Assembly (NCBI GenBank): GCA_944470555.2
Contig: OX104127.1
Coordinates: forward strand, 30,705,661-30,769,660
DNA from: Heterobilharzia americana
Taxonomy: Eukaryota; Platyhelminthes; Trematoda; Strigeidida; Schistosomatidae
Reading direction: 5' to 3'
Length of the DNA stretch: 64,000 nucleotides
Shown here: piece by piece, positions 31,406 through 61,200 of the stretch
How positions within the stretch are numbered: position 1 is the stretch's first letter
How the letters are laid out: the number at the start of each line of letters is the position of its first letter
Translations under genes and position numbers: made by a program
Notes under the pieces: generated by a model
The model's input: the letters and a program-made list of their open reading frames with translations, nothing else
Databases searched by the model: none
What the model was told of the DNA's origin: nothing

Positions 31406-31579
31406 GCTGATATGTTTCATCAAGTCATGATTTTATAACTTCTTCTTTCTGAATAATAACTTTTCTTTGTGTGTATTTAGCATATTCACCTTTTCATTAA
31501 AAATATAGCGATTACAGAACAGCGTTTCTTGATCTCATATCTAGTTATGATATCCTTCGAGATGGTTGTCACAAAGTTT

Positions 31580-31930
31580 TAAATAAGAAGCCGTGACCGT
31601 GGGGTGGGAGTGGGGGTCAGCTACTTGGAAGTGAAGCGGATACCAACTGAAGACGATGGTGGATACTTGTGCTAAGTCGCTAACTGACAAAAGTAGGAAA
31701 CTGTGGACTATTGAATACCAACCCAGTTACTGAATGGTCAACGCGTTCACCACGAGACCTGAAGGATCTGAGTCCGATCTCTGATGGGTTCGTGGGTGCG
31801 TACTGTTGAGGAATCCCATACTAGGAGGAGGCAGTTATTCAATACTCAGGTTTTCAATAGTTCTCCAACTGATTTCAGCCCGTGTTAATTACTACCTTTA
31901 AAATAAGTCTCTCATAAACCTCAAACTATA
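31580..31930 (+). mobile_element. tRNA-headed hammerhead SINE, decayed copy
   Basis: Homologous over its length to 43320-43670. It has a tRNA-like part (GAATGGTCAACGCGTTCACC, then CTGAGTCCGATCTC), then the TGGGTGCGTACTG block and the hammerhead region. The core reads TTGAGGA and the GAAA box is lost (GGAGG), so it is inactive. The shared tail CAACTGATTTCAGCCCGTG follows. Confidence 0.65.
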
Positions 31931-34050: not shown

Positions 34051-35215
34051 AGACGGAGGGAAAGATTGGTTACTGAATTTTTACTCACCAAATCGGTACC
34101 TAACACATGCAACAGGAATGATTCGTCACACATTGCAGAGATTTTCGAAAATTACAATTCCCCTAGAAATGAAGAATAAGATGTGATATGACTGGAAATG
34201 AAGTTTCGAAGTTGTGATTAAATTGATATGATAATCAGAGATACCTTGTTCTCAGAGTTTCATCCAGTAAATATTACACTAACCACCGTGAACTATATCT
34301 AATGAACTAGTCTAATGTGAGCTACTAAATATTTCGACAATGGTAAACGAAGTGAGATATGTTTTAGCAATAAGTAACGGTAAAAGTCTAGAATAACTTT
34401 ACAATACCGTGTACGCGCAAAAATTAGAAACGGTCTCAAATCGTAAAGTTTGCACAAAGTGAAAATCCCAACTTATGACGAGCTGGGCGTGTTGTTTCAA
34501 GCTAGGACTCTACCTCATCCTACAGTATAACTTTGATTGGTGCCTTACTTGACCTGTAGGCAGCTGAAAAATCTATTTTTTACGGAAACCGTTTCTAGCC
34601 TAGCCGCATGCATATGAGGATATAAACATTGTACGTATGAAATACATCAATGAGAACTTTTTCCATGATGGAATGTACTACAGGTGAATTTCCCACGAAA
34701 AGGCTACACACAATTGTAACGTACTGTATATGTAACTATTACGTAATACTCAACCAATCCTACTTAACTCAATGTGCTTTAGTACCTGCTTAATTAGTAC
34801 CTTACCTAACGTGTAAGTAACGATAACAAAACACAAATCAAAAGGACTGGTATTCAAGAATATATTCGAAAGATCAATATATTTAAATAGAATAAAAATG
34901 AAGGGAAAACTTTATCCAACGTAACTGGCTAATATGACCTAGCTAGGGACTCTGAGAATGTGCCTGTCAACCAGCAAAATGTCGTCGAAGCCGTCTCGGA
35001 TACACACTCGTTAAAACACGTTAAGCATCCGGAGGGGAGCCGCAAGTTTATTTAGTCAATATATAGTTGATTCAACTTAGTCTATTTATTTTGGGCCTAG
35101 TTGCATTTTGGTATCAGAAAGGTTCACTACACAATCATAAGATTTTATTTTGCTAATATTTCTAGCAAAATTACTGCCCGTGATGCCACCAACAGCTAAA
35201 ATCTTTTTAATAGTA
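34050..35215. other. Unassigned AT-rich sequence
   Basis: No long frames, repeats or splice-flanked exons recognised. Confidence 0.45.
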
Positions 35216-35219
35216 TTTA

Positions 35220-35400
35220 TTCAAGTTGGTATTCATCATGGACTGACATAGGTTGGAGGAGCGTTGGGAACCTGGGAGCACTGGACAACTGTTTCGTCCT
35301 AGTATGGGACTCCTAAGCGGTGCTCACCCATGACCCTGCCAAGAATCGAACCCAGGTCCTGCGGTCATTCCGTTACCATTGGGCCACTGGGTTGGAATCT
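35220..35400 (-). mobile_element. tRNA-headed hammerhead SINE copy
   Basis: On the reverse strand a tRNA-like head (CCAGTGGCCCAATGGTAACG, box B GGGTTCGATTC) at about 35392-35340 is followed by TGGGTGAGCACCG and a hammerhead region (35332-35271). Stem II GTCC/GGAC, GAAAC and the stem III ACAGTTGT are present, and stem I pairs with CAGTGCTC except at one position. The first core reads CUUAGGA instead of CUGAGGA, which should disable it. Confidence 0.72.
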
Positions 35401-35900
35401 ATAATGGTCCATATTTCCAACTTCGGTCAGGTCACAACATAGCGCGACCATCACCCAATGTCACCAGGTTCACACCATTGGTCACAACTTTTCATTGAAA
35501 CTTCAGGAATCACCTCTCGAAGTTAGTCACTAATGAACACTAGATCAATTGAATTCTGAGGTTTATGGGGATTTACTGATTTCAGTTCATGATGAATACC
35601 AACTTGAAATCAATAAATCCTCACAAACTCCCAAACTGAATACCTGTTGACTCCTTTACAAATAGGTGTCACATATTTTGAATTACCTTTGTTCCATGTG
35701 TTAGGGGTGACAGGTATGTGTAAATATGAATTTTGTTATCAGTCCTTCTTTCCGTCTGCATTTGTTGGACTTCAGTATGGTAGTGTTGTTCCAATTGCTG
35801 TTATATTTTCGTCCTATGCATGAGCTGCTATCGGTGAACTTTTCTTCTAGTTTTTGTATTGTATTTCTGTTGGCTGACCTCTATTTAATCTTTGATGTAC
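35400..35900. other. Unassigned AT-rich sequence
   Basis: Contains CAACTTGAAATCAATAAATC near 35600, reminiscent of the SINE tail. Nothing else was seen. Confidence 0.4.
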
Positions 35901-37525: not shown

Positions 37526-38180
37526 AAAGAATGTAGGTAAGCCCATCGTGGGTTTTGAGACATCCAGGACGAATCAGCTAACTGGAAATGTAATCCATTC
37601 CTCTAAAAGTTGAGGTATTATGATGTAGACCATTATATTACGATAGGCATTTCGTTTTTAGCCGGTACTATTTCGCATAATATTTGGAACCAACTCGTTC
37701 TTGACTTCCACGTTTAAATCGACCAGCTCACGTTACTATATGGCCTTCAATGTAAATGAATACATCTTAAACGAAAGATTGCAACCATAATCATATTTAC
37801 ATAGTTATCTTTAGTGGCTTTGAATGTTACTTGAAATGTGACCGCTAAATGGGTTTCACAGACTTACAGTTAGTGACTGTCAACTAGTCAAATCCCACCC
37901 TTGTTCTAGTGCAAGCTATTACTAAACATTGTCTCCTTGTGACCAAAGGAAGTATCCACTAGAACTCACGGACGGATCATTATAGAACCTTGAACAGAAG
38001 TGTATCAGCTCAAGTTGCCGCACTTCAACGAAGTATGCAGAGAAAAATTGGTTCGAAAACAGTTGACCCAAATGCAGTGTTTTATGGTTCTATATAATTA
38101 AGTCTTTTGATTTTTTTTAGTGATTCATGAAATAACGCTATGATGTTTGAAGCAATCGGTCACAAGTTTGTGTCTTGGTT
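37525..38180. other. Unassigned AT-rich sequence
   Basis: No feature recognised. Confidence 0.4.
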
Positions 38181-38290
38181 GGAGCAACATCGCTTAGTGG
38201 GAAGCGGGTACATCCAGCTGACGAGTCCCAGATGAGACAGAACTCTCGTCCTGGATTTCACTGCTACCCACCATCAGTCATCAGTTCATA
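38180..38290 (+). repeat. SM-alpha-like repeat with hammerhead motif
   Basis: Same layout as 21055-21180: GGAGCAACATCGCTTAGTGG, then CATCCAGCTGACGAG, a stem II (GTCC, loop, AGAC) and GTCCTGGATTTCACTGCTAC. The first core is CUGACGA, where the changed position is the one that tolerates any base. The second core reads AGAA instead of GAAA (38239-38242), so activity is doubtful. The 3' strand is closer to the active consensus than in the 21 kb copy. Confidence 0.72.
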
Positions 38291-38675
38291 AAACACTTAT
38301 AATTTTGTCGCAATTCTACTTTTTCTATACAATGCATACCAAACATCATCGTCGATATCGACATAGGACCAGATATTACGGTCCGACTTTCCACAGATCA
38401 TATCACTACAACAAGTGAAGAAGCAGTGAGGTGCAAGATGAAAATAAGTAAATTCAGTCAAAAGAGTCTCCAACTACTGGTTTCTTTTGTCACGTGGACC
38501 CCAACCACCTAGTCTACATCACCCCCACATGGCTCAAACCAACAGTCAAACACTTCATACATTGGTTCCATGTTTTAGTCTGGCCATCTCGGGCCTTTTC
38601 TCAGCCTGGACCTACTTCGGCCAACATTTTATGACAAGGCGATCGGTGACTGGGCATACGTAGTACGTATCCCAA

Positions 38676-41829: not shown

Positions 41830-43000
41830 TCGGTAGGGATCCATACCAATATGCGTTTGAGAAATTAGCTGAGAATATAATTTGTTTGTTAATGGACTTT
41901 TCATCTGGCCTTAATTGTTTAGATACCAGTACTTCTAATACGTTGTATTCAAGTATCAATTTATGTGTCCATTGTTCAATTCGATGTTGAATATTGTATA
42001 TGAATTGAATATTTTTACTATAGCTTATTCGTCTTACCATTGAATAGTTGAACATGACTGAATTTTATGGTACAGTTTCCCTCTAAAGTTTTTTTAATTT
42101 AATTTCACATTTTCAATCAAAGTATTCATTTTCTTTTTTATTCATGTAATTAGTAACATAAATTAATGAGTAACCTAATAGATTCTGACATATTATATAA
42201 CTGATTTGATTGAAACAAGTAAGTTTCAATTTTTAATTTTTCTTTTGGATTTGAGATGACATCCGCAATAGTTTTAAGTATTTTGTTTTGTTGAACACAA
42301 GGAGCAACATAATATCGATTACCTCTGATTGGTGGATGTTTATTAACCAGTTTGTGAACGTCAAGTTGTCTGCATGAATTCCTTATAATTTACATATCAT
42401 TCATGAAATCAGACATCTTGAGCACTTTTCTTTGTTTTATCAAATAGATAAGTACACTCACTAAATACTGATCCAAATTTAGCTAGTAACCACATTATAA
42501 AATATTTTTCGTACATTTCATTAAAATATTGATAATTCATAATATGATCCAGGCGAAATATTGTCTTTCTAATTTGCTTAATTCATCATTTACACTGGCA
42601 ATTAATGCATATAACTTTCTACTTTCTTATTCCATTAATAATTCTTCTTTATTTTCAATATTTGAATGAATTTTTTTTAACATTTTAATGAATTTGATAT
42701 GTAAAATTTTCATATCTACACATATTAGATACACTTAGCGAGGACCATAATTTCTAGAGTTGACAAAATATTTATCTTTAAGTTTTGCGTATTTGTGGCG
42801 ATTACAATTGATGAAAGGATGATTCTGTGCCATCTAGATGATTTTTGTGCATCATTTATCTATTTTGCTGGATATATACACATATTCATTAACTAAAAGT
42901 TACTTAGATTTCCTCAAAAATTGTTAACCAAATGAAACTGATCATTAACATATTTTTTTTCTGAATGATAGTATTATTTTTCAAGGCATTATTCATTAAT
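41830..43000. other. Very AT-rich sequence without features
   Basis: No coding signal on either strand. The 81-codon frame at 41810-42055 has no domain. Confidence 0.5.
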
Positions 43001-43265
43001 TACGTACTCAAATCAGTTGGAAAAACATTGAAAACCTTTGGGCCCTAGACAGCTGTTTCATCGTAGTATGGGACTCATCAGCAGTACACACTGAAGACTT
43101 CTACAGAGATCGAACTCAAAACTTTCAGGTCTCACTGTGAACGCGTTAACCATTCAGTTTTTGGGTCAAAGTCTAATACTGCACAATTTTCTACTTCTGT
43201 CAATTTGTGGTACAGTGCTATGAATACTAGATTGAAATAAAGAATCCGTACAAATACTAAGATAA
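43000..43265 (-). mobile_element. tRNA-headed hammerhead SINE copy with intact core
   Basis: The reverse strand has a tRNA-like head (GAATGGTTAACGCGTTCACA, box B GAGTTCGATCTC, about 43160-43100) followed by the hammerhead. CUGAUGA (complement of 43076-43082), GAAAC (complement of 43055-43059), the self-complementary stem III ACAGCUGU and the cleavage-site C are all present. Stem I and stem II are short, with some wobble or mismatched pairs. It lies tail-to-tail beside the plus-strand copy at 43320. Confidence 0.7.
43049..43092 (-). ncRNA. Hammerhead ribozyme motif, all core bases intact
   Basis: Core elements CUGAUGA, GAAA and UC are in the right order. Stem III is a six-to-eight base self-complementary segment (ACAGCUGU). 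Stem II pairs GUC with GAU. Stem I pairs GUACUG with UAGGGC at five of six positions including wobbles. Stability is marginal, so in-vivo cleavage is uncertain. Confidence 0.55.
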
Positions 43266-43319
43266 AGAATTACTTTATAGTTCTCAACGGTGACGTACTT
43301 ACAGATGGATAACCCGAAG

Positions 43320-43670
43320 TTTGAAATGGGAAGCCGCAACCTGTGGGGTTAGCTGGGAGTGAAGTGAATGTTAAGTGAAGACCTTAGTGGTTAGTTGTGC
43401 TATATCGGGAATTGACAGAAGTTGGAAACTGTGAACCGCTGAATTCAGCCCCAGTGGCTGGGTGGTTAACGCATTTCCCGTGGAAAGTGAAGGCCCTGAG
43501 TTCGAACTCTGGTGGGGTCGTGGGTGAGTACTGTCAAGGAGTCCCATACTTGGACGAAACAACTGTCCAGTACTCCCAATTCTTTACTGGTTCTCCAAGT
43601 GATATCAGTCCGTGATTAATACTACCATGAAATGAAATAAGTCTGCATAGACCTCAAACTAAAAAGAAGT
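43320..43670 (+). mobile_element. tRNA-headed hammerhead SINE copy
   Basis: An upstream leader shared with 31585 is followed by a tRNA-like head at 43451-43516 (CCAGTGGCTGGGTGGTTAAC, box B GAGTTCGAACTC), the hammerhead at 43521-43578 and the tail GATATCAGTCCGTGATTAAT. Stem I GAGTACTG/CAGTACTC is perfect, with a C:G pair of other copies replaced by T:A on both strands. Stem II GTCC/GGAC and GAAAC are intact, but the first core reads UCAAGGA, so cleavage should be lost. Confidence 0.75.
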
Positions 43671-44838
43671 TCTAAATATGTTCAAGGTTGTGTTACACAC
43701 GCGAATTTGTACAGCAAAATATTGGCTAGATGTTTAATTTGAGTAATATTAGACTAGTGACCAAATGAATCTTGTGTTATGAGGTGGGATGTCTGTGGAC
43801 ATTTTCTTGCCAATACCTTTCGTAGTCTGCTACAAGTCTTTGAGTTATCTCTACACAGTGGGAACTGACTGATAAGCTTACTCACAAAGTGTCATCAGAG
43901 TGTATTTACATGTTCAATTGTCCATCTGAAAATGAACATGTACTCGTCAAATTTGACTGGAAACCCTACCTAGCTTAGTCAGCTTCATTTTGAGCCTCAT
44001 GAAAACTCAGGTTATTCATCTTCTTTTAATATGTCTTTCAAAATAATTCGGAAAGTACAGTCGGACTGCAAAAACGAGTGTAGGAATGCCATTTATGCAC
44101 AGTTGAAGCATTATAATTTGATGTTTAAAGTCTCCGGTTATACGTTTTCGAAAAGCATGTGAATTCCCTTTCGTTGCTGTGTTCTTAGAGTATCCCTTCT
44201 ATCTTCTTAGAAAACCTTTAACTTTGTTGTCATGTATCTTGATGTTCTCATGTAAGGTGAGGTGTATAGAAGAACAACCCAGTATTGTGCACTAACCTAA
44301 TGTCATAAACTGACTTTTTAAGAAATCCTTATGACGTAATTTAGTTTCATATTTCAGTTTCCCTGTATTTTCTTGTTCTAAAGAGAGATGAACACACACA
44401 CACACAGTGAAATTTATTAGAGTGAAGCCTGGGTACGATCTAACTGTAAACACTAATGCTAGTTTATGTATCTTGTCCTGAAAATTATAATAATAAAGGA
44501 TAAGTAGCCACTTTTTTCGTCCGACGTTTATATATGTAGTCAAGGAGGAGGGAACTGATATGATTATGACCAAATAGGTTTTTATTGATCCCATCTGTAC
44601 AACTGTATTTGTTTCTGATAACTTGCAACATAAACACAGAAGAATACTGACTAAACCCAACCTGCATTAAATGGGTCCTAGATCCGGAACCATCCTGACT
44701 AACAGGTGTTGAGAATATGTACGACAATCGAAAAATGACTCGCAGAGAAACAGCGCGTAATTTGAAAAGTAATTCATTGTGTTAGTCAATACCTAATGCG
44801 AATAAACAACATGGTTCTCAATAGGAATTTGATACCAC
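43670..44838. other. Spacer before the full-length RTE-B
   Basis: AT-rich. A short (CA)n run lies near 44394-44406. Frames at 44292-44727 on the reverse strand have no domain. Confidence 0.45.
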
Positions 44839-44852
44839 TACATAAAATATTA
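44839..44852 (+). repeat. Target-site duplication, left copy
   Basis: TACATAAAATATTA, identical to 48116-48129. It marks the left insertion boundary of RTE-B. Confidence 0.92.
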
Positions 44853-45038
44853 ACCTCGCCTGGAAACTAGTTTACTAGTTACTAGCCGGTCCTAAGCCCG
44901 GGTAAACAGGGAAGGTTGGGCATAGGGCTAGCAACCCTACCCCGTAAAACAAATCTAACCGCTAAAGAAACTTGAAAGCACAAACAAAATATAAAAAATG
45001 AAAACAAACTTATTCCCCGCTGGAATCGGAGAGGCGAA

Positions 45039-45890
45039 ATGACGCCAGTTGGTGAAAGCCTTCGGGAAGCCAATTGGCCGATGTGTCTTCTCTCGATGAA
45101 AGCGAAAGTAAACGTGGGGACATGGAATGTCTGCACGATGTTTGAACCCAGTAAGGCAGCCCAGATTGCAAAGGAGATGAGAAGGTATAACATCGAAGTG
45201 CTTGGGATTTGCGAAAGCAGATGGAATGGGAGTGGACTCTCCAAACTGTCAACTGGAGAATCAATAATCTACTCCGATATTGTCACCCAGACGACAACCA
45301 TGAGCACACTGAGTTTTGGAGTGGCTATCATGATGTCCTCAAGAGCATCGAAGGCTCTCATGCAGTGGGAACCAATCTCCTCCAGGATCATGACAGCAAG
45401 ATTCAACTCAAAAGGAAGAAAGGTCACAATCATACAATGTTATGCACCTACAAATAATGCAGAGCAAGAGAAAAAGGAGGAATTCTACAGACAACTTGAA
45501 TCAACACTGGACAAGACGTCAGTTGGCGATATCAAAATTGTAATGGGTGACATGAATGCCAAACTGGGAGGGGACAACACGGGAAGAGAGCTAACCATGG
45601 GTCGAGAGGCGCTAGGTGAAATGAACGAGAATGGAGAATTGTTTGCAGAATTCTGCGCATTCAACGATTTGGTGATTGGAGGCAGTGTGTTCAGGCACAA
45701 AGATATCCACAAAGCGACATGGATTTCACCATTCACCAGATGGACACACTAAAAATCAAATCGACTTTATCTCAATCTCAAGAAAATGGAGACGCAGTCT
45801 ACTTAACACAAGGTCAAGAAGAGGAGCAGATGTAGGTTCAGACCACTCACCATCTAGTGCAAAGAACCTTCGAAATCAAGTTAAAAGCCT
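45039..45890 (+). pseudogene. RTE-B endonuclease domain
   Basis: An apurinic-type endonuclease with KVNVGTWNVCTM, EVLGICESRWNGSGL, VTIIQCYAPTNN, IVMGDMNAKLGG, HKDIHKATWISP and, after a frame change at about 45740, NQIDFISI and the final GSDH. The catalytic Asn, Glu, Asp and His positions of the fold can all be found, but two frame changes separate the last third from the rest. It nicks target DNA in RTE elements. Confidence 0.88.
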
Positions 45891-48103
45891 TCAAGGAAGC
45901 TGGTGATAGACCTCAATTCAAGTACAACACTCGGAAACTGAAGGATGAAACTACAAAGGAGATCTTCAAGGCAGCCATCAAGACAAAATGGGAGACATCG
46001 AGGGACATCCCTGAAGAAACCTGTGTGGAAGAACACTGGAAGTCTTTGAAAGCTATGTGGAAAGAAACCTGCACAACAGTATTAGGAAGGAAGAAGAAAG
46101 AAGACAAGGAATGGATCTCGACAGATACCTGGAAGCTGATAGAGGAGGAGAGGAGGATGGTGAAACAGAAGATAAACCAGTGCAAGGATGCTCAACGACA
46201 AGCGGAACTTAGCACAATGTATAAAACACTACACTGGACAGAGAAGTGAAGAAGAATGAACGGAAAGACAAAAGACACTTCTACGACACATTGGCAAGTG
46301 AAGCAGAACAGGCTGCAGGCTGGTAAGAGAGACCTGACAACATTGCATCAAATAACCAGGTTGCTATCAGGGAAGAGACCAACACAGATGAAACCAATAA
46401 AAGATGAAGAAGGAAATTTAATTACGAAAGAAGAGAAACAGAGGAAACAATGGGCCGACCACTTCAAGAAGCTCTTGAATCGACCACCACCACCACCTGC
46501 ACTTCGTCCAGAAATACCACCTGCAGCCGCTGAATTACAAGTGAACATTAATCCCCCAACGAAAATGGAAGTCCTGAACGCCATAAAGCTACTGAAATGC
46601 GGGAAAGCAGCAGGACCAGATGGGATACCGCCAGAAGCACTGAGAACAGATGCAGAGACAACAGCGGACATGCTCACACCACTATTGCAGAAGGTGTGGA
46701 AGGAAGAGAAGGTACCTGGTGATTGGAAGAAGGGTTACCTTGTCAAACTGTCGAAGAAGGAGACCTCAGTGTTTGCAAGAACTGGCGCGGAATCACTCTC
46801 CTGTCCACCCAGAGCAAGTAAAATATTAAGCCGCATCATCCTGGAGAGGCTTAAAGATGCACTGGATTCAAAACTGCGACCGGAACAGGCAGGCAGGCTT
46901 CAGGAAGTACAAATCATGTGCAGACCAAATTGCAACGCTTCGTATCATCATAGAACAGAGCGTAGAATGGCAATCAGCTCTCTACCTCAACTTCATCGAC
47001 TTTGAGAAGGCCTTTGACAGCGTCGACCGAGAAGTAATTTGGAAACTGCTTAAATACTACGGAGTACCGCAAACCTTTATCCGCCTCATTCAACAACTAT
47101 ATGAAGATGCCACATGCCAAGTAATCCACAATGGGAAGCTCAGTGATGCCTTTGAAGTGAAGACAGGAGTGAAACAAGGTTGCCTACTATCCCCCATGAT
47201 ATTCCTTATTGTGGTGGACTGGATCATGCAGCAAACAGTGGGGAGCGAGAAGAGGGGGATACGCGCTGGACTGCGGAAAAGAACCTAGAAGACTTGGATT
47301 TCGCCGATGACTTATGCCTAATGTCACATAAACTTGAAGATCTGCAGGCAAAAACTAACAAGTTGATAGAAGAGGCAGCGAAGACGGGACTTCAGGTGAA
47401 TATAGAGAAGACAGAAGTGATGAAGATACCGCACCACCACCATCAACAACAACAACAACAAACTCCAATCACTGTCAACGGGAGAAACTTGAAGGAAGTA
47501 ACCTCCTTCACTTATCTAGGAAGCACTGTTTCAACTACAGGCGGGACGGACGAGGACGTCAGAGTCAGAATCGGAAAAACAGCAAGACAGGCGTTCATTA
47601 GCCTGAAACCAGTGTGGAGATCTTCTGCACTCAGCATGCAGAACAAGATACGGATTTTCAACACCAACGTCAAGTCAGTGCTGCTGTATGGTTCAGAGAC
47701 TAGGCGCGTCACGAAAGGGATTTCCAATAAACTACAGACATTCATCAACAACTGCTTACGCTCGCTGCTGAAGATCAGATGGCCAGAAAAAATAAGCAAC
47801 AAGGAACTCTGGGAACGAACCAACCAAGAACCTATCACCCAACAAATATGCAGGAAGATGTGGAGATGGATTGGGCATGCACTGAGAAGGCCGACGGAGG
47901 ACATCACGCGTCAGGCCCTCGAGTGGAATCCCCATGGGAAGCGACGAGTTGGACGTCCGAGGGTGACATGGAGGAGGTCGTGCGAGGAGGAAATGAGAGC
48001 TTGTGGGCTGTCGTGGAGCCAGGTTCAAAAGATCTCAGAGAACAGAGGTCACTGGAGGCGTGCTACTGAAGCCCTATGTTCCACTAGTAACCCAAGGGAC
48101 TAA
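45857..48103 (+). pseudogene. RTE-B linker and reverse transcriptase
   Basis: A basic helical linker (45857-46249) ends at a TGA. The same frame resumes and holds MEVLNAIKLLKCGKAAGPDG and VPGDWKKGYLVKLSKKE. After a frame change comes NFIDFEKAFDSVDREVIWKL, FEVKTGVKQGCLLSPMIFL, then after another change the catalytic box DFADD (47297-47311) and a continuous C-terminal region (VTSFTYLGSTVST, LLYGSETRRVTK, RRVGRPRVTWRR) to the stop at 48103. All catalytic residues are present. Each domain is intact, but they are not joined in one frame. Confidence 0.9.
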
Positions 48104-48115
48104 TAATAATAATAA

Positions 48116-48129
48116 TACATAAAATATTA
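48116..48129 (+). repeat. Target-site duplication, right copy
   Basis: TACATAAAATATTA directly after the (TAA)n tail. Confidence 0.92.
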
Positions 48130-48880
48130 CTAGAGATGTTTGAATAAAGTTATACAGGGTAGAAAAGAAGTTGACACTGACGCAATTACAAATGATCAAG
48201 TCATAGTGATAACTGCCTACACATTCGTGATCACACAGAAACCTATTCAGAACAATTACCTTTACATACATGTGGTTAATAAAAAATGTGTACAACTGAC
48301 GAAAAATACTTTAATTGCAACGGCCAGCACGTGTATTAAGTTAATCAGGCCTTAATAATCAACAGAACAATGCCAAAATATTTGTAAAGTAAACAGGAAC
48401 ATTGAAGTGAATACTTTCTCGTACAATATCATACACTGTAAAATGTTTCACATCCAAATTATTGCTTATGATCATATCGAATCAGCCACTCAGCTTTCTA
48501 CATCCGTTTTTTTATACTCCTATCACCTTATCTTTTTGTTTCTAATGGTTGTAGAATTTTCCATATGTCCTGAGTAGGTTTAATGAAATGTTTATTTAAG
48601 AAAGCTTGGGAACTCGTTAGTGCATTAAAGAACAAAAATAAGTAATTGGAACTTATAAAGAAGTTGCTACTGATCTATAACTATATTATACAGTTAGTAA
48701 GGGAATTCATAAAAGTTTGTAACGCATTCGAAATCTTACTCATTCACTTTTCAGTTTCGATTTATAGACTGCCTCACCTCTTCGTTGTCAAGCTCTACCG
48801 TTTGTCAGTTATCTTTCATTATTACATGTAAGATCATCCTGTGTGCTTGCTGAGTCGTTAGCTCACCTTTTTCTCTTCTA
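48130..48880. other. AT-rich spacer
   Basis: No supported feature. Confidence 0.45.
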
Positions 48881-49235
48881 GATTCTCGTGGCCACCACTA
48901 GACTCATAATGCTCTACGCGCTCCCCTGCAACAACGTACCAATCTGCCTACCGACCTACAGGCTAGAAAAAAACGGATCAACAGCTGGTCTTTACCTGTT
49001 CATAACAAAAAACAAAGCCGTAATAGTGTTGTGAATAGTAAGAGTAAGACAAATAAATCAAAAGGATTTCAGGAAAGCTTTACGTAGAATCCTCAACGAG
49101 GCAGGAATTATGGTGGCATTTAGAGCTACAAGACCACTCATAGATAAATTGTCATGTTCAGGACCCTTTGACGTAAATGAAAATGTAATTTGTTTCACCA
49201 AATACCAAGTAAAGCTTGAGAGGTTGAATGCATAG
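48880..49235 (+). other. Possible coding exon or Penelope-like connector remnant
   Basis: After acceptor-like CACCACTAG (48890-48898) a frame of about 60 codons reads LRAPLQQRTNLPTDLQARKK, then KQSRNSVVNSKSKTNKS, to a stop near 49087. In another frame, KALRRILNEAGIMVAFRATR and PLIDKLSC follow, up to 49230. The latter resembles the connector before the GIY-YIG domain of Penelope elements. Neither reading is proven. Confidence 0.3.
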
Positions 49236-50240
49236 TTTCAATCACTTGGTTGGGGTCATTTAGATTATTGAAGCAGAGAAACAAAGCTTCATTTAGAACG
49301 AAATAGTCCAGAAAGAACAATAATCTATGAAAAAGCTCACCTATTGTAATGCATGTAGTGACACATAACCATACATGAGGAGGGTAAAAAGCAACTTTAT
49401 TGAAGGCAAGCAAAACTGAGTAGAGTGATATATCGATTACTGATTCTTTGTTCATCTGAGCAACGCTTAACAAGTGCAGCGGGAATCATTCAGTGTTTGT
49501 TTTGGAGGTGTAGTAGACCCAAAGAATGTCAAGTAAACCAAAATGACAAAATACGTACAATTCACAAGAAAAATGGATTTTATGATACACATGTATGAAA
49601 AGTTATACGTTATAGCATAAATAGTATTGTCAATGTTATAGATAATCACTGGTTACTTGGAGGTTATCTCTTCGGTATTGTCCACCACCATTTTGGGATA
49701 CTCCAGAGATCAGAAGGTGGTATTTGTTGTCTCTCCGCTGTGGTCGTCGGTCAGCTTGATTGTCGTAATATTTGGAAGTAGGATGAGAAGTCCTGTAAAT
49801 TCCCAAGACAGTCAGTTATTATGCACGACAGGCAATAGTCACGGAGGCAGAAGTCGGAATGGTTAGAAGCACATTATATTTTCACGATCAGCAGCAGCAA
49901 AAGATGCAGTTACTGCCACAACCAAAAAAGTGTATACATAAACAACATTCGTTTTTACAAGTATTGGGAAGAATGTACAGAATGTGTAAAAGAAACGATG
50001 AAAAGGAGATATTGCTTATAGTTGAAGTGGTTTACGCACAATTGTATGCAGTCTTCACAGAGGTAATGCGAATTCTACTATCATTTCAGACAATGAATAT
50101 GAGCTGACCATTTGAAAGATACTCATGACCTAAAGCTTAAGTAATAACACGGACTTAGTTAAACTGATCAACTACAACTTTACAGAGTAAAATGAAGACA
50201 TCTGGTTTTTTCTGTTGTGAATATCTTTAGTTTATTGTTA
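49235..50240. other. Unassigned sequence
   Basis: Short frames at 49195-49473 (-), 49657-49866 (+) and 49859-50107 (+) carry no domain. Confidence 0.4.
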
Positions 50241-50759
50241 GTATTTCTGTATCAGCTACATGTAAGATTTTACATGTCTTCATTATTTTGAGCAAAATCA
50301 TTCTTAACAATGCAAGAAAAAAGACACTTGCAGAATAAAATGAGTTCATTTTATTTAGCGACTTTTCATAAGCTGCAAGCAACTTACAATTGAAATGAAG
50401 TATTAGTAGTAACGATTGAATAACATACTCTGAATATGCAGAAATGAACGAAGGTTTGAAATCATGGATTAACGACAATTCTTCAAGATAGTCAGCAAAC
50501 AAGAAAGCCATGTTTATTACTGTTTGTGGAAGCTCTCGCCATCAAACATTTTCAACCTGACCTATGTACTCAGAAAGAAACTACAATCAACCTTGTTTTA
50601 CCCTGGTAACTGCCCATAAATTTTTGCATGTGTATGTATACAGTCTTCGTTTTGTTGATTGTATCACCTCTGCATTAATTACTTACTGATTGTTAATCAC
50701 TTAACGATCTTTCGGTTTTTCATATAATCACATAACCTATTAGCTCTTTGACAACCCCT

Positions 50760-51023
50760 TCTCGTTGTATGGTGTTCTCTGAGCTGGGTTGTTTAATCGT
50801 CAAGCTTTCATCATCTTTCTGGACGACACCATCAGTACTAACTTCAGTATGAAGTGAGCTGTCAATATTTCTCCGTGAGTGATTTAGTGGCTTGCTCTGA
50901 CGGTGTGGTCTGTGATTGGTTGTTTCCTTCGATTGTTGTGTCATTGATTGCATAGACTTTCCTATTGGCTGTTCCTCTGCTTGATCTCTGATCTTTCTGT
51001 CGTTTATCATTTTTCTTATTGGT
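50760..51023 (-). repeat. Penelope fold-back, left arm
   Basis: Inverted relative to 51851-52055. The shared stretch begins ACCAATAAGAAAAATGATAA and includes GACACAACAATCGAAGGAAA. About 60 nt present here are missing in the right arm. Confidence 0.85.
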
Positions 51024-51076
51024 TGATAGATCGGGTCTATGTCTATACACCTTTTGATTGCTGACTGAACTGAATG

Positions 51077-51855
51077 TCAAGCTTCTAGGAATTCTCTGAT
51101 ATTCTTTGTGTTTCCTCTGTCCAGAATTTCTACATCGTCGAAATTGAATTCATTTTCATAATTATCCCCGTGCATTGAAATGAGTGACGAAATGTCGTGG
51201 CGTTTTATAGCCAATTGGTGCTCATGTAGACGAAGGCGAAGAGGGCGGCCACTTTGTCCAATGTAGTGTTGACTACAGTTATTGCAGCTGATTCTGTAAA
51301 TGATATTCGGTTTGTCTTCTTTGTTGCATCCTTTGGTCTGCATAATAATGTTCGGAGGGAATTTTTTGGTTTATGAGCTATACCAATTCCGAGTGGTCCC
51401 AGCAATCTTGTCGTGATTTCTGATATATTCTTTATGTATGGTAGGACGATGCGTTTGTTGATTTCTGTCGATGACTTCGTAGTTGATGATGTACGGGATA
51501 GGCATCTTGTGATAAAGTTTTGTGGGTAGTCGTTCTTCTTTAGGGTGGACATCAAGTAATTTTCCTCGTTTCTCCTTGAAGCTGTTGTGCTGCAGTGTGT
51601 TCTTGCTCTTTTGAGTAGAGTCTGCACGCAACTGATTTTGTGTGTCGTTGGGTTGTTGCTATTGTAGTTGAGGGTCTGGTCAGTGTGCGTTGGCTTCCTG
51701 TACACTTGGGTTTCCAGCTTTCTGGCATTCGTCCTACTGACTGAGACATCCAGGGATGGTAGTTGGTTGTTTAACTCTTTCTCCATTGTGAATTTGATGT
51801 CACTGAAAATGTTGTTGATCAAACTGTGGGTGTTTTCTATTGGTTGATAGACCAA
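51077..51855 (-). pseudogene. Penelope-like RT C-terminus and GIY-YIG endonuclease
   Basis: Frame 51855-51205 covers the thumb and connector. After a frame change, frame 51343-51077 holds the GIY-YIG nuclease: QTKGCNKEDKPNIIYRISC, the NCSQHYIGQSGRPLRLRLHEH core and a tail ending REFLEA. The IIY and YIG tripeptides and the following Arg are the catalytic landmarks of this family, whose role is to nick target DNA. A C-terminal extension rich in Gln and Ser continues to 50720. The palm is absent, so this is a remnant. Confidence 0.82.
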
Positions 51856-52055
51856 TAAGAAAAATGATAAACGACAGAAAGATCAGAGATCAAGCAGAGA
51901 AACAGCCAATCGGAAAGTCTATACAATCAATGACACAACAATCGAAGGAAACAACCAATCACAGACCACACCGTCAGAGCAAGTACTGATGATGTCGTCC
52001 AGAAAGATGATGAAAGCTTGACGATTAAACAACTCAGCTCAGAGAACACCATGCA
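51851..52055 (+). repeat. Penelope fold-back, right arm
   Basis: Begins at a small hairpin, ATTGGT-TGATAG-ACCAAT (51842-51859), which is where the strand orientation switches. The inverted homology resumes at 52230-52430 against about 50500-50250, with a diverged gap between. Confidence 0.85.
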
Positions 52056-52324
52056 ACCAAGACCATTCACCTGAGCTACAAGTATTCTCCATTATCTCAA
52101 CAACCCCTTCTTTTACACTGATGTTAGTTTGTTGTCAGTCCGGCTCCATTTCACCATACATAAATTGCTATTGATTTTGACAAAGATTGTTGACTATTTA
52201 TGTTGTGTTTCCCTGACTTACTACCTTATTGTTAATTCTGGATTTTAAACCTTCATTTATTTGTACATATTCAAAATATGTTATGCAATCGTTACTACTA
52301 ATGTTTCATTTCAATTGTAGGTTG

Positions 52325-52365
52325 TTTACGGCTGATGAAAGGAGTTGAAACAAGATGAGCTTATT
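52325..52365 (+). ncRNA. Hammerhead-like core in the Penelope end repeat
   Basis: CUGAUGA (52332-52338) is followed after 8 nt by GAAAC (52347-52351). Penelope end repeats in animals are known to carry hammerheads with this spacing. Stem II would be only AA/UU here, so the fold is weak. The inverted partner near 50350 has lost both cores. Confidence 0.4.
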
Positions 52366-52429
52366 TTATTCTGCAAATGTCTTTGTTCTTGCACTGTTCA
52401 AACTTATCAAGGGAACTAAATACAATTAT

Positions 52430-54265
52430 TTCAATAGGAATTCCCCGATAGCAAGTAGTTAAAGGAGAATTTTTAGGTCACTAATCATCAAGGTAGACTT
52501 GTTAGCCTCAAGATTTTGATTAATATTGATTTATTATCAAGATGACCTCAGTAGAAAGTTTGACTTTCAGTGAGACTAGTTAGAATAATTTGATTAGTCT
52601 TTATCCTAGTGGACATCGACAGATCCAGTAGTTGTGGAGATCTGATTCACTAACGTGTTCCAAGATTCAAATCCTACTCACCTACTTTCATCTAGGACAC
52701 TGGGTAGAAGCACAAGCTGTCAAACAGTGAGTGTGGCTTATAGCTTAGTATTTGAAACACCTGTGTCGGATCAAGTTAAACTGTTAATAAACATCACTCG
52801 CTGTCAATCACAGGTTAGTAGTGGTATCCCAATAATTTCATGGATCAGTGAGGCGTAATGTAATGGGTGATAGTTGTTGGTAGTGTAAAGTCCAAGTAAT
52901 TCCGAGTCTTCAGTGTCAATATTTACTTGCGTTTTAACTTACTTCAGTACGTCAGTTCGCTCCATGTTTACAAATTATCACAGTATCCCTCTCTGGAATG
53001 ATGTAATGAAGTCTACAAATATATTGAGCTTTGTGATGCAGTAACCATGTCTATGTTATAGAATCTATCCAACAATGTATTTCTGAGCAACACATCTTCA
53101 TTGAAGCCTGATTCCCTCCTTAGTTTTTTCAGATTTGATATCTTCAAGTTCCAGTTAGTTACTGAGTAACACTCAGTCTAGGATCTTAAATATGATGTCA
53201 GTCACTTAAAATCCTGAATATTTATCACATCCAAATTTGTCTGCTTTCTCATAAGTCTGAGTGATCAACAGTATACCTCTATGCTTAAAGCAGAAACTGG
53301 AATTTCATGTTACTCCTCTAAGATTTCTTAAATTTTCAAAATTATTTGAAGATCCTTTCAGAAATTTTGCTGAACTGGTAAACTTGCCTTTTTTATAATG
53401 CCTTTTATAGATCTCATTCTTGAAGTTCTTGTTGAAGATGGTGAGTTATGGAGTCGCTTGATTCATTGGTAGGAACAAATTATCAGAGTCGAACTTGCAG
53501 GATGGTGATACTGGATAATAGATAGGATGTAGTTAGAAAAAGATTATGATGACACCAGTTTGTTAGGAAACCCGAAGGTTCATTCTCGAAAGAAATTAAC
53601 GGTGTTGATGATACTTATCTAGGATGAAACGAGTGTTCGATTCTCTATAGCTTCCAGTGGTTACTTGATTGATATCAGTTTTTAATGAGAGGTGTTTTCA
53701 TACTGACAAAGAACTTAGCTGTGAAAATATTTCACAGCACAACTTCTGAAACAGTCAAGTGGTAAAACAAGTATAATAAGCTGAGACCAATTTTAAGTTT
53801 GCAAGTAAACTTCACCAACATCAAGTTAACATGAGAGGATGGAGAATATTTGTAGTTCAAAAGGATGATTTTTATGATGTGTTCTCTGAGATGGATGGTT
53901 TGATCGTGAATTTTTATGGTCATTCTAGACAACATCATCACCACAAACTTCAGAAATAAGTTAGAATGGTTAAAACAATATGGAGTTGATTATTTTGAAA
54001 ACTGAAAACATAATTTACGTTTGGTTACACATTTTGTACCTTTACCTAAAAGTGAATTTTGAAAGATCACCAACAGCTTCGTGTGCTTTGTGGTAATTGG
54101 CTGTCCAAGTGTCTTTGTCTAACCCTATCATTTTACAGGACAATTTTATCATGTGGTTCAGTCCTGACAGTGTGAAGAATGAAAACTAGCATTATTGATC
54201 GTATTGATAGCACATCTTCAGAAAGAAACTACCTTTTGACTTGTAGTTGGTTCCGCAAAACTGGC
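52430..54265. other. AT-rich sequence without features
   Basis: No coding frame, repeat or splice structure supported on either strand. Confidence 0.45.
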
Positions 54266-54415
54266 TGAGAGAATTCAATTTGGAAGATTGTGGGGATTTT
54301 ATTGATTTCTGGTTGGGATTCGTCAAGGACTGACATCAGACACAGAGAGATTGACAACCGTTTCGTCCTGGTATGAGACTCCTCAGCAGTGCACACCCAT
54401 GACTCCGCCGGTGGT
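54265..54415 (-). mobile_element. Hammerhead SINE copy (left of a head-to-head pair)
   Basis: The reverse strand reads CATGGGTGTGCACTG, CUGAGGA (complement of 54380-54386), stem II GUCU/GGAC and GAAAC (complement of 54360-54364), then the family tail toward 54265. Both core boxes are intact, but the 3' strand of stem I is replaced, so the ribozyme fold is incomplete. The tRNA head is nearly absent. Confidence 0.65.
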
Positions 54416-54560
54416 TCTATCTCTGGCAGGATCATGGGTACACACTGCTGAGGAGTCCCATACTAGGATAAAAAAGCTATCCAGTGCCGCCAGGTTTCCA
54501 GGGTTTCACCAACTGATGTCAGTCTATGGTAAATACCAAGCTGTGAGAATTCAGTCAGTT
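54415..54560 (+). mobile_element. Hammerhead SINE copy (right of a head-to-head pair)
   Basis: Plus-strand copy: CATGGGTACACACTG, CUGAGGA, GTCCCATACTAGGAT, then AAAA in place of GAAA, CAGTGCCGCCAGG and the tail CAACTGATGTCAGTCTATGG. Inactive by the lost G of the second core. Confidence 0.65.
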
Positions 54561-55135
54561 CTGTCAACTAACTGTATAGCCTAATATTGACATGTAACTG
54601 TACATGGATAAACTGATTTACAGACAATTCGGAGAACAAGAACATCTTAGTGAATCATATGAAGGAGGACGGAAAAGATAAATAGACAAACAAGTAGCCG
54701 TAGAACCTCCTACAAAAGTACATCAGTTCAAGTTTCCATGCAAGCAAAGAAAAGATGAATGTAAGACGAATGACATGAAAGAAAGTGAAAGTCCATGAGA
54801 TGAGAGGAATCATAAGTAGATAAGAAATGACCGAAATGTTCAAAATTGAAGGATGACAAACAGTGTATGCATCTGCGTCATTATGAAGGATTTTGAACTT
54901 TTCACTTAGTCTGCAATAGCTGATTTCCAGCTTCAGAGTACCATAGATAGGTAGCTTATGCACATGTAGATGGCTCAGACAAAGAATAAGAAACTTCATA
55001 GGATAAAGTCACATCATGATCTGGCTCTTCTTAGCTCTATTCCTACTTCTGTTAAGATTCCATCTCGAGGTAGTCACTTATTTGTAGTGGAGTGAGTTGC
55101 TGATCACAACGAATATAAGTAGTATATATGGCAGT
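54560..55135. other. Unassigned sequence
   Basis: The frame at 54655-54999 on the reverse strand has hydrophobic stretches but no recognisable family and no splice context. Confidence 0.4.
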
Positions 55136-55315
55136 TCAATTTGGAGGTTCATGGGGATTTGTTTGTTGATTCCAGATTGGTATTCACCAGGGATTGATAT
55201 CATTGAGAAAATCACTGGAAACCTGGGAGCACTGGACAGCTGTTTCGTCCTGGTGTGAGACTCCTCAGCAGCTGCACTGGGGACAGAGCCCAGGACCTTC
55301 AGGTTCTGCAGCCAG
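55135..55315 (-). mobile_element. Hammerhead SINE copy with intact core (left of a second head-to-head pair)
   Basis: The reverse strand has CUGAGGA (complement of 55262-55268), GUCUCACACCAGGAC, GAAAC (complement of 55242-55246), stem III ACAGCUGU, the cleavage-site C and CAGTGCTCCCAGG. All core bases and the 3' strand of stem I are present. The 5' strand of stem I (GCAGCTG) pairs over about four positions only. The tail runs to 55135. Confidence 0.7.
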
Positions 55316-55324
55316 CTCAATTCG

Positions 55325-55440
55325 TGCTAAAGTGCTGCCTACGGAACCTGAAGATCCTGGGCTCAATCTCTTTTGGGGTCTTGGGTGTGCACTCCTACTT
55401 GTACCACTTGTCCCTGCATATTCGGCAATCTGGTGTTAGG
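55325..55440 (+). mobile_element. SINE tRNA-head fragment (right of the second pair)
   Basis: Plus-strand remnant: ACCTGAAGATCCTGGGCTCA and TTTTGGGGTCTTGGGTGTGC match the box B side of the head and the start of the body. It then diverges before the hammerhead. Confidence 0.5.
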
Positions 55441-58231: not shown

Positions 58232-58238
58232 TTAAAAG

Positions 58239-61200
58239 ATGTCTTACAAAACCAATTTTGATAACAAAAGTCGTCCAAAATCTGAACCATCAATCAGTGC
58301 AGTCATCGAGACTACATTGATACCAGGACATTTTTTAAAGTGTAGATCATCTAGAAAAACGAGACATAGAACATCAGTAAAACTTGATTTAACGATTAGT
58401 TGTAGAACGAAACACAATGAAAGAGGTAAATTCAGAAATAAAGTTGATAGTGAAGAAGAAGAATTACTGGAGAAAACTCAGAAATCAACCGGTGAAGATC
58501 TTCATACCAAGATTCTACCAACTACAGCTAACGATTCAACTTCTTTTGTTTACCCACAACCATTGCAAAATCTTGTCCATTATCAATCACAGCAGATGCG
58601 TTTTAACACAACTTTTGAAAATGATTTAAATAAACTAAACTTAAAACATGAAAGTATCGAAAATCTAATTGTTACTCCCAAGTTTAATTCTTCCAAAAGT
58701 TTACCTAACATTGAACAACAAGTGCATCCACAAAGTGAGTCTCACACTTGTGGTCCTGTTGAAATTGTACAAAAGCCAAGAGGTATTGAAACACCGAAAG
58801 CGACTGAGTCAAAAGAAGACGTTACAGGTGAATTAACCACCTTACCACTATTATATAATGCAAACCCGCCATTATCATCACACTCCCACTATTCAAAAAA
58901 ATCACTAGATATTGCTGATAATGAAGACATTACTGCTGCAAATCCTCCTCCCAACCTAGGAATGAATGAACATGCCGAAGGATTCAATTATCCAGAATTT
59001 AGTTATGACGTTTATGAAGAATGTCGTTATGATAAAGATCTGCAGTCCACAAGCCCTAAAAAGCTGATTGATAATTTGGAATTCGAAAGTGTTGTTAATA
59101 TCGAAATCCCAACAATCTTTACGACTGAAGTTATGGAGACTGATTTACAACAAACTACAAACTACTCTGGTGAAAAAGGGATTAGACATTATAGTAATGT
59201 TGAGACTGAGTCTCAACTTATAGCAGAGAAGACGCCATCATTATTGATGCTGACACTATCAAACAGTAAACTTGTACATGACGAACTTGTTGATAATGGT
59301 TCAAAAAAAATTGTAAGGACCCCTTTGAAGGAATCAAAGGATTTATCGATAGAACAAACTTCAAAGTTTAACGATGCCTTCCAAAAATATGCTCAAGAAT
59401 CACAAGTAAGTCTAAATGAGGTAAGTGAGGATTTAAAAGCTGTCCGAATCACTTCATACCTTTTACTCAATCAACGGACAGAACCGACTTACTTATTAGA
59501 AGAAACTGACGAAAACGAAGGATTTAAAATCTCAACACCAAATATTTTACATAGGAAAACAGATGTTAGTGAATCGCAGATGTATACTGGGAAAAAAAGT
59601 AATCAAGCTCTGCAAAATCCACTAGCCAATAAGTCCTCGATACCAGATAACTCTGAAGGTAAAACAGTAGACTCAAAGGAGATTGTTCAGTCGCAAACGG
59701 TATTCACAAATGCGTTCTCTAGGACTGTAGAAACTGAAGAAACTACTACCGTTTCCATCGCTTATTCTGATCAAAAACTAAGAGATCATGAAAATCGACA
59801 GTATGAATTAAAACAAAGTACAGATGGAGAAAATGGCATGCACTATCAAGAGTTACCCGGCCTTTTTATGGAATCACAACAGACTGTAATTCTAGACAGC
59901 TATCAAACAAACTGCCAAACACAGACGGAGTCCAGTATTAAGACAGAGCAGTGTGTGGAACCGATTCTATCAACAGAATCCAACAAAAGTGTGCCAGTAA
60001 GTGTGAGCATTACATCTTCACAAGTTGATCAGTCTGATGCAACAGATGATTGCTCACAACTTCAAGGACAAGACCACTTTCCTTACATTGTATATAAACA
60101 GGATGAAAATAAAACACATAGATATTCTTTAGACAAGTTTATAACAATTGAAATATCCACTGAAAAATCTGTGTCTAACGAACCGATTGATAAACCAGTT
60201 TTAGATGCTAAATTTGATGGTGAAATAAGAAAACCATACTTTAATGAAACTCAACTGTCCCAGAAACATTTAGCGAAAATCTCATCTGATGAGAATAATT
60301 TTAAACGTGAAATAAAAGAGTTTTTATCAAAACAGGAACAAAATATCATTATTGAACATGAATCAGACGAAAAATATTCAAGCGATGTTAACACCCTCCA
60401 AGTGATTGAAACACACACACCTGAACCACAAAAGCCAAGCCTTACTAATATTTCCTTAAACTCATCTAGAAAAGGGATTTTATCGTCAGTTGTTTCTACT
60501 AACTCATTTGTAGTACGAAGTATTACTGAAACACCTTCAACACTTCCAGTTCACTTCAGAGGTCTGAATATCGAAATGGAAAGAGTTCATTCAACTCGAA
60601 GTGAGACGTCTATTCATTCACATTCTACTCCATCACCTATTTTAGTCCCTGAAGACCAATTGGGATCCTTCTTACCGGTTACCAAAGAGCCTGACCTTAC
60701 TAATTTTACTCCGCTTATTCTTCCAGCACGAAATTTGAAAACAAGTGAAGCCATGGATACCGAGACCGATGCATCTAAAAAAGAAGTGCAACCATCCATA
60801 GTCCAGACAGTAATTCCAGTAAGCCCCGAAGTGAATACTTCAGAGACTTCTATATTTATTCAGAAAACTGATATGAGTAAGAAATTGGAGTCCATGAGCT
60901 CAGAGTCTAGCGATCACCTAGTAAGCAATCAAAAAGCAGATCTTGTTCCTCCAACGTATGATAAAGATTTTGTATCCAACATGTCAACCAGCAAGATACT
61001 TCATAGCCATAGGTTTGTAGAACTTACCATTTCAGATACACACCTGCACGAAGTGAATCCTTCGGAGATTCCTCCTGTTGTAGTAAATAAGGAATTTAAA
61101 TCATTTTCAGTTCAAAACAACGAGGGAATTATAGATGATATAAAAAATGCAATAACTAGTCAGTTTAAAGGACCAGTTGAGTCATTGGATTGGTGTATTT

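Follow-up and report, generated by a model that had tools for sequence, protein, structure and literature searches.

This report concerns a stretch of 64,000 nucleotides from the schistosomatid trematode Heterobilharzia americana (GCA_944470555.2, contig OX104127.1, here C1; C1:30705661-30769660, forward strand), referred to as the window, and a short repeat within it, family B, which carries a hammerhead-like motif. Judged from its sequence, family B is a genuine family of small mobile elements with a predicted self-cutting RNA motif. It is probable that family B is a high-copy, non-coding retroelement that is inserted by Penelope-like proteins, with a template which may be a circle or a tandem transcript. 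We infer Penelope-like proteins as the inserters because the anatomy of family-B insertions matches the published anatomy of Penelope insertions, including the tail, which is about 30 nt long here. The head-to-head insertions, the two types of 3' end and a Penelope-like copy about 2 kb from the family-B copies at 54 kb go beyond the first-pass annotation of this DNA, which had described a tRNA-headed short interspersed element (SINE) with a compact hammerhead.

Insertion anatomy of family B

The genome (664,890,237 bases) was searched with two family-B queries. For window positions 43354-43661, the best 40 of 6,506 candidate places were scored, and for the 396-nt family unit, the best 40 of 6,287. 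Candidate places are not equivalent to confirmed copies. The full-length matches among the 40 scored with the unit are 94-98% like it. From the top-scoring loci, 55 distinct insertion sequences were obtained, a sample that is skewed toward young, long copies. Position 1 of the unit is a convention.

An inverted partial copy abuts the main copy head to head, with its 3' end outward, in 46 of the 55 insertions, and 26 of the 55 contain a tandem piece, in which position 396 is followed by position 1. The inverted and direct pieces overlap at their junction by at least one letter in 34 of 46 cases. The 3' ends are of a long and a short type. A short left end is combined with a long right end in 33 of the 46 insertions, the reverse applies to 10, and the remaining 3 have another left end. 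Among the 43 pairs with both ends classed, none has two like 3' ends; one is always long and the other short. The median long end is at position 394 and the median short end at 364, with a median difference of 30 (range 20-40, n=43). At 32 of 55 loci (58%), the left and right flanks have an exact word of at least 10 letters in common, compared with 2.1% of mispaired flanks (median length of the longest such word 10 and 5), and the flanks are richer in AT than the surroundings (72% versus 63%). The inverted junction lies at varying positions of the unit, the length of the flank repeat varies, and 5' truncation is present. An apparent clustering of upstream tandem pieces at unit position 347 disappeared in a more sensitive mapping.

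Typical Penelope insertions are described as mostly head to head, with direct and inverted pseudo-long terminal repeats (pseudo-LTRs, pLTR), a duplication of 9 bp and, at one of the inverted repeats, a characteristic tail of 31 bp; AT-rich targets are reported there as favoured (PMC3846280). A curation guide outlines the same anatomy in brief and mentions that animal retrozymes may rely on Penelope-like elements (PLEs) (PMC8969392). According to these descriptions, PLEs and family B have in common 5' truncation, a partial tandem, a head-to-head inverted repeat, short duplications and, at one of the ends, an optional tail of roughly 31 bp. PLEs encode a reverse transcriptase and a nuclease, however, whereas the family-B unit is too short for this, so family B would be a dependent of such elements rather than a member.

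As a separate observation, two family-B insertions 5 kb apart, L018 (C8:9443265) and L017 (C8:9448270), have identical letters in opposite orientation. This points to either a recent segmental duplication in inverted orientation or a fault of the assembly.

The hammerhead motif

The seven copies that had been reported at 31.7 (+), 35.3 (-), 43.1 (-), 43.5 (+), 54.35 (-), 54.46 (+) and 55.25 kb (-) were all found. Their majority consensus of 46 nt reads GCACUG CUGAGGA GUCC CAUACUA GGAC GAA ACAGCUGU C CAGUGC and is a complete type I hammerhead with all core letters and all 14 pairs. CUGANGA and GAAA, the lack of which in the consensus had been named as grounds for rejecting the motif, are thus both present. 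The order of hammerhead elements that had been ascribed to the copies applies to this consensus, but not to each copy. None of the seven window copies carries an intact hammerhead; the core is intact only in those at 43.1, 54.35 and 55.25 kb, all of which have lost stem pairs.

When the window was scanned with a hammerhead descriptor, the six best matches were six of the seven copies, the one at 31.8 kb scoring only 19. Scores of at least 21 occurred 6 times, versus a mean of 0.22 and a maximum of 3 per shuffle in 100 dinucleotide shuffles, and scores of at least 23 occurred 3 times, versus none in these shuffles. With the Rfam model Hammerhead_1 (RF00163, gathering score 34), one of the seven copies is at or above gathering (55.23 kb, 37.8 bits), the scores of five others lie between 20.1 and 32.4 bits, and the 31.8-kb copy is not listed. 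Rfam was also run on 20 of the 55 young family-B loci, and 18 of these have a hammerhead at or above gathering. Two loci, L034 and L054, each have two gathering-level hammerheads on the same strand, 395-396 nt apart. The 55 insertions contain 83 hammerhead segments: 22 are perfect, 28 have an intact core with a pair lost, the core is broken in 26, and the other 7 contain an indel. The hammerhead differs from the unit at 3.7% of positions, the body and 5' segment at 5.0-5.1% and the tRNA-like part at 7.6%; this gap is too small to argue for constraint on the hammerhead. The full hammerhead is not the minimum-free-energy (MFE) fold of any of the seven window copies; the copy at 43.5 kb retains stems I and II.

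Covariation in stems I and II had been set in advance as a test, and the result is mixed. Between family B and the SMalpha-like comparison family described below, both partners of four of the six stem I pairs (1, 2, 3 and 5) are changed while the pairing persists, and there are differences in stem III as well. Within family B there is little: pair 2 of stem I is U-G in 66, U-A in 7 and C-G in 2 of 76 segments (C-G in the older window consensus), and other double changes within the stems are few. Stem II is GUCC/GGAC in both consensuses and is therefore uninformative. In the SMalpha-like family, a stem III pair is T-A in 11, C-G in 7 and T-G in 5 of 28 copies. The predicted cleavage site lies 66 nt from the short end in family B, and in the SMalpha-like family this distance is about 34 nt; such a placing would fit action of the ribozyme on the template's 3' region.

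The 396-nt unit and its tRNA-like part

From 5' to 3', the unit of 396 nt comprises some 180 nt of 5' segment, the tRNA-like part in its interior, the hammerhead (positions 259-304), the 3' body and a tail roughly 30 nt long. The consensus has its box A at position 186 and its box B at 229, with a gap of 32 nt. The tRNA-like segment is present in four window copies (31.7, 35.3, 43.1 and 43.5 kb). Two window copies scored with the Rfam tRNA model in the right register gave 14.5 and 15.8 bits (gathering 29), and among the 20 young loci only two were listed, at 29.0 and 26.7 bits. ARAGORN, applied to 34 loci, found no tRNA inside the element and one tRNA-Ser-like match in the flank of L003.

A stretch upstream of the tRNA-like part is common to the copies at 31.6, 43.4, 35.4 and 43.2 kb. 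In 300 shuffles, the upstream alignment scores were not reached for the pairs 43p/31, 35/43p and 43m/31 and were reached once for 35/31; farther upstream of this shared stretch, no likeness was found among the window copies compared. None of 27 unselected matches starts within unit positions 166-214, the region in which the tRNA-like part begins. The tRNA-like head with box B that had been proposed thus survives as a weak tRNA-like part with A and B boxes, but it is internal, and the label "tRNA-headed" was dropped because about 180 nt of family sequence precede it. An RNA polymerase III start as the usual 5' end of the copies was likewise rejected, since none of the 27 matches begins there.

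The Penelope-like copies and the SMalpha-like family

A Penelope-like insertion lies in the window at 50763-52099 (-). It consists of an inverted 3' arm, the 5'-truncated and frame-broken end of a reverse transcriptase, a GIY-YIG segment (51080-51331) and a 3' region. The 12-bp word AGAAGGGGTTGT flanks it at 52100-52111 and 50751-50762 and was unmatched in 1,500 random pairs, and its two 3' ends are 41-44 nt apart. The 225-aa fragment from this copy alone has no Pfam match; relatives of the copy match PF26215, and some also RVT_1. In a genome search with the Penelope-like protein, for which the best 150 of 23,551 candidate places were scored, matches without a stop reach 559 aa, and a head-to-head pair is evident from the coordinates at C3:48946421/48948528. 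A further locus, L091, was picked for its two head-to-head matches in this search. Its arms of 1.8 kb are 99.6% alike, the flanks share a word of 11 bp, the ends are about 37-43 nt apart, and RVT_1 is above the cut-off in both frames. The window copy and L091 are, as far as sequence can tell, Penelope-like; the name is borne out by the RVT_1 and GIY-YIG domains and by the anatomy. A search of solved structures with a frame from L091 returned a single match (E 0.006) to an unrelated receptor, which was taken as chance. Close to the 3' end of the Penelope-like element, a hammerhead-like motif was read by eye in L091, with CUGAUGA, six pairs and GAAA. The family-B tail and the tail of the window Penelope-like copy share a likeness of 10 letters that is not kept in L091. 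A second Penelope-like 3' fragment at 53832-53953 (-) is 75% like L091 and extends to the long end.

The comparison family is represented in the window by SM-alpha-like hammerheads at 21095-21139 (+; Rfam 35.7 bits) and 38212-38256 (+; 39.1 bits). A genome search with positions 38150-38330 gave 1,374 candidates, of which the best 40 were scored. The hammerhead core is intact in 15 of the 28 read. An inverted partner is present at 17 of 30 loci; 12 of 13 classed end pairs are unequal and one is equal, while four more have another kind of end. The long end is some 100 nt longer than the short end. Flank words of at least 9 letters are found at 6 of 30 loci, against a background of 1.1%. Against the family-B profile, the SM-alpha-like window copies match weakly and around the hammerhead only (E 0.0052 and 0.015), and their tRNA-like part differs. 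This agrees with the first-pass annotation, which had kept family B apart from the SM-alpha repeats while assigning it the same minimal-stem-III design: family B is a distinct family with a compact type I hammerhead and a self-complementary stem III.

Controls, mechanism and rival explanations

Copies that were not selected by score were compared with two controls: a tRNA-Ser-like SINE and a long interspersed element (LINE), which we take to be an RTE element. The LINE control comes from the flank sample alone, and only the final 800 nt of the LINE query served for the comparison. An inverted partner was found for 9 of 25 family-B, 9 of 21 SMalpha-like and 4 of 7 Penelope-like copies, versus 0 of 12 for the SINE and 0 of 23 for the LINE; shuffled upstream sequence gave none. 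The Fisher test yields 1.5e-6 for 22/53 versus 0/35, and 0.006 for the two hammerhead families versus the SINE control alone. The control SINE is also present in the window, as tRNA-Ser-like repeats at 20307-20380 and 20641-20713 (+; 37.6 and 33.9 bits), which ARAGORN reports as tRNA-Ser gga and which belong to a high-copy SINE.

If Penelope-like proteins, with their reverse transcriptase and GIY-YIG nuclease, insert family B, both cut target strands would prime reverse transcription of family-B RNA, with some 30 nt between the two priming sites, and the resulting cDNAs would then join head to head. More tentatively, the template may be a circle or a tandem transcript. The hammerhead might cut single 396-nt units out of tandem copies, which a host ligase may then circularize, as reported for animal retrozymes, and the self-complementary stem III would suit cleavage of a dimer. 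The tandem joins and the hammerheads one unit apart in L034 and L054 would fit a circular or self-trimmed RNA, and they would fit tandem transcripts too.

Several results weigh against insertion by Penelope-like proteins with a ribozyme at work. The 55 insertions were chosen by top score, and a strict criterion pairs only 4 of 35 unselected family-B copies (2/28 in flanks, 2/7 in the window); the corresponding values for flanks and window are 6/29 and 0/2 for the SMalpha-like family, 2/5 and 2/3 for the Penelope-like copies, and 0/15 and 0/42 for the controls. The tRNA-Ser-like SINE, which has no known hammerhead, has three head-to-head pairs (C3:59564286, C4:70420561, C6:13317966) among the best 40 of 2,552 candidate places scored. 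In comparable tables, family B has 8/40 (window query) and 20/40 (unit query), with queries longer than that of the SINE. The trait is therefore enriched in the hammerhead and Penelope-like families but not exclusive to them; the SINE may also be Penelope-dependent, or its pairs may arise otherwise. The GIY-YIG match (PF01541) on the C-terminal segment of the window Penelope-like copy (E 0.0012, 19.5 bits) is below the cut-off of 22.6, the Rfam hammerhead model finds no match on L091 at E up to 5, and shared sequence between family-B and Penelope-like ends was not established. Finally, the MFE fold of the consensus monomer pairs the core CUG with the CAG of stem III and forms no full hammerhead, and 17 of 200 shuffles fold equally well. 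A weak monomer fold would be expected from a palindromic stem III, and cleavage as a dimer is possible.

It is unlikely that family B is an ordinary tRNA-derived SINE, copied by a LINE, with occasional twin priming behind the head-to-head copies and the hammerhead an ancestral passenger. The A and B boxes 32 nt apart fit this explanation, as do the tRNA match at gathering in 1 of 20 young loci (29.0 bits), the LINE-like elements with Exo_endo_phos and RVT_1 domains in the window, and the three pairs of the tRNA-Ser-like SINE in 40 regions. It is at odds with the head-to-head arrangement in 46 of 55 insertions and the lack of like ends in all 43 classed pairs, with the 0 of 23 inverted partners for the LINE (over the last 800 nt of the query), and with the roughly 180 nt upstream of a tRNA-like part at which none of 27 unselected matches starts. 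Somewhat more doubtful still is the notion that the hammerheads are relics of a once-active ribozyme family whose copies only decay, so that the insertion structure has nothing to do with them. The broken cores (26/83) and indels (7/83), the absence of an intact window copy and the weak monomer fold would be accounted for, but 22 of 83 segments are perfect, the best full-length matches are 94-98% like the unit, and related S. mansoni hammerheads are reported to cleave in vitro (3 of 5 tested; PMC8490949).

The inverted arms with short direct flank repeats would suggest a DNA transposon, or a fold-back element whose inverted ends are long, but judged by the insertion structure this is very improbable, because the junction position and the flank-repeat length vary and because tandem pieces and 5' truncation occur. 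Insertion by Penelope-like proteins remains the preferred reading for family B. Chances are about even for a more general proposal, namely that the schistosomatid hammerhead SINEs are a distinct mechanistic class which depends on Penelope-like elements rather than on LINEs. In this proposal, circular or tandem RNA released by the hammerhead would be reverse-transcribed with both target strands as primers, at two fixed sites separated by some 30 nt, and many insertions would be born as head-to-head dimers.

Family-B copies in the window

The copy at 31554-31927 (+; outer limits approximate) has a 5' segment, a tRNA-like part (31720-31791), a hammerhead with a broken core (31800-31845), a body and a tail. 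At 35204-35535 (-), the 5' segment, tRNA-like part (35332-35393), hammerhead (35278-35323, core broken at one position) and body are present, and two oppositely oriented tail pieces at 35553-35635 adjoin its 5' end (leave-one-out E 0.0034 and 0.0037). A 5'-truncated copy at 42978-43219 (-) has a hammerhead (43042-43087) with intact core and lost pairs. It is followed by the longest copy of the window at 43273-43660 (+), with a tRNA-like part at 43448-43519 and a hammerhead with a broken core at 43528-43573. A head-to-head pair occupies 54278-54544, formed by a minus copy (hammerhead 54347-54392) and a plus copy (hammerhead 54442-54487) with inverted arms at 54361-54409 and 54425-54473. It is flanked by GAGAATTCA at 54269-54277 and 54545-54553, a candidate 9-bp target duplication. 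The copy at 55137-55311 (-) has the hammerhead with the Rfam score of 37.8 bits (55229-55274, core intact, stem I weak), and a tRNA-like piece at 55329-55393 (+) is head to head with it (inverted arms 55286-55316 and 55334-55364).

Leave-one-out profiles give E-values of 7e-07 to 1.7e-13 for the seven hammerhead segments. For the short start and tail boxes of the window copies this support is weak, and no match was obtained for 1 of 4 starts and 3 of 7 tails. Family B occurs at a density of 109 per Mb within the window, compared with 145 per Mb in the flanks of the sampled loci, which total 193 kb. By extrapolation from this imperfect sample, the genome may contain tens of thousands of copies.

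Other features of the window

A match to the type-P1 twister ribozyme at 44847-44919 (+) scores 47 bits (gathering 67.2) and is followed by LINE-like frames at 44976-48103 with Exo_endo_phos and RVT_1. RTE retrotransposons with twister ribozymes at their 5' ends are mentioned in a review (PMC7761336). Within the LINE-like element, a SECIS_1 match at 45029-45094 (+; 34.2 bits, gathering 35) is probably due to chance. An open stretch of 1,880 codons extends over 58236-63878 (+). Of its first 553 residues, 46% are covered by a 100% match to a 905-aa H. americana protein of no named family.

Relation to known elements and implications

SM-alpha of S. mansoni and Sj-alpha of S. japonicum are described as hammerhead SINE-like elements (Ferbeyre 1998 and Laha 2000, as cited in PMC2770079 and PMC8490949). 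As characterized there, they resemble family B in the tRNA-like part, the type I hammerhead with a very short stem III and the high copy number. The S. mansoni W-elements W25.2, W26.2, W27.2 and W36.2, compared by description only, also have hammerheads in repeats and are termed satellite-like (PMC8490949). According to the same source, the two tested S. mansoni candidates that did not cleave have changes in the core or at the cleavage site. Exact-pattern scans of viral_contigs gave no match.

Family B also resembles the animal non-LTR retrozymes, which are described as having a type I hammerhead, units of 170-400 nt in tandem, no known coding role and flank duplications of more than 4 bp, and for which circular RNA is reported (PMC7229834, PMC7761336). 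The family-B unit of 396 nt falls within that range, carries a type I hammerhead and joins in tandem, as in a non-LTR retrozyme. The excerpts consulted from these two papers describe tandem repeats and co-existing Penelope elements, and neither head-to-head dimers nor two types of end appear in them. The 2020 study regards Penelope as a strong candidate for the mover of retrozymes on the grounds that the two co-exist, that copies are in tandem and that hammerheads are shared (PMC7229834). Titles and abstract openings on Penelope, retrozymes and hammerhead SINEs do not report a Penelope-type insertion anatomy for hammerhead SINEs, although an earlier mention is possible.

If the proposed mechanism is correct, head-to-head dimers would give hairpin RNA upon read-through. 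In S. haematobium, 9 of 16 small-RNA clusters with hammerheads are predicted to be hairpin-derived (PMC5993326), and it is tempting to speculate that such dimers could explain these clusters. The identity of the enzyme that moves animal hammerhead retroelements has so far been a guess on indirect grounds. The insertion anatomy is a physical trace of that enzyme, and in two hammerhead families it matches that of Penelope down to the tail. The question of whether Penelope is the mover thereby becomes testable in a single genome with many young copies.

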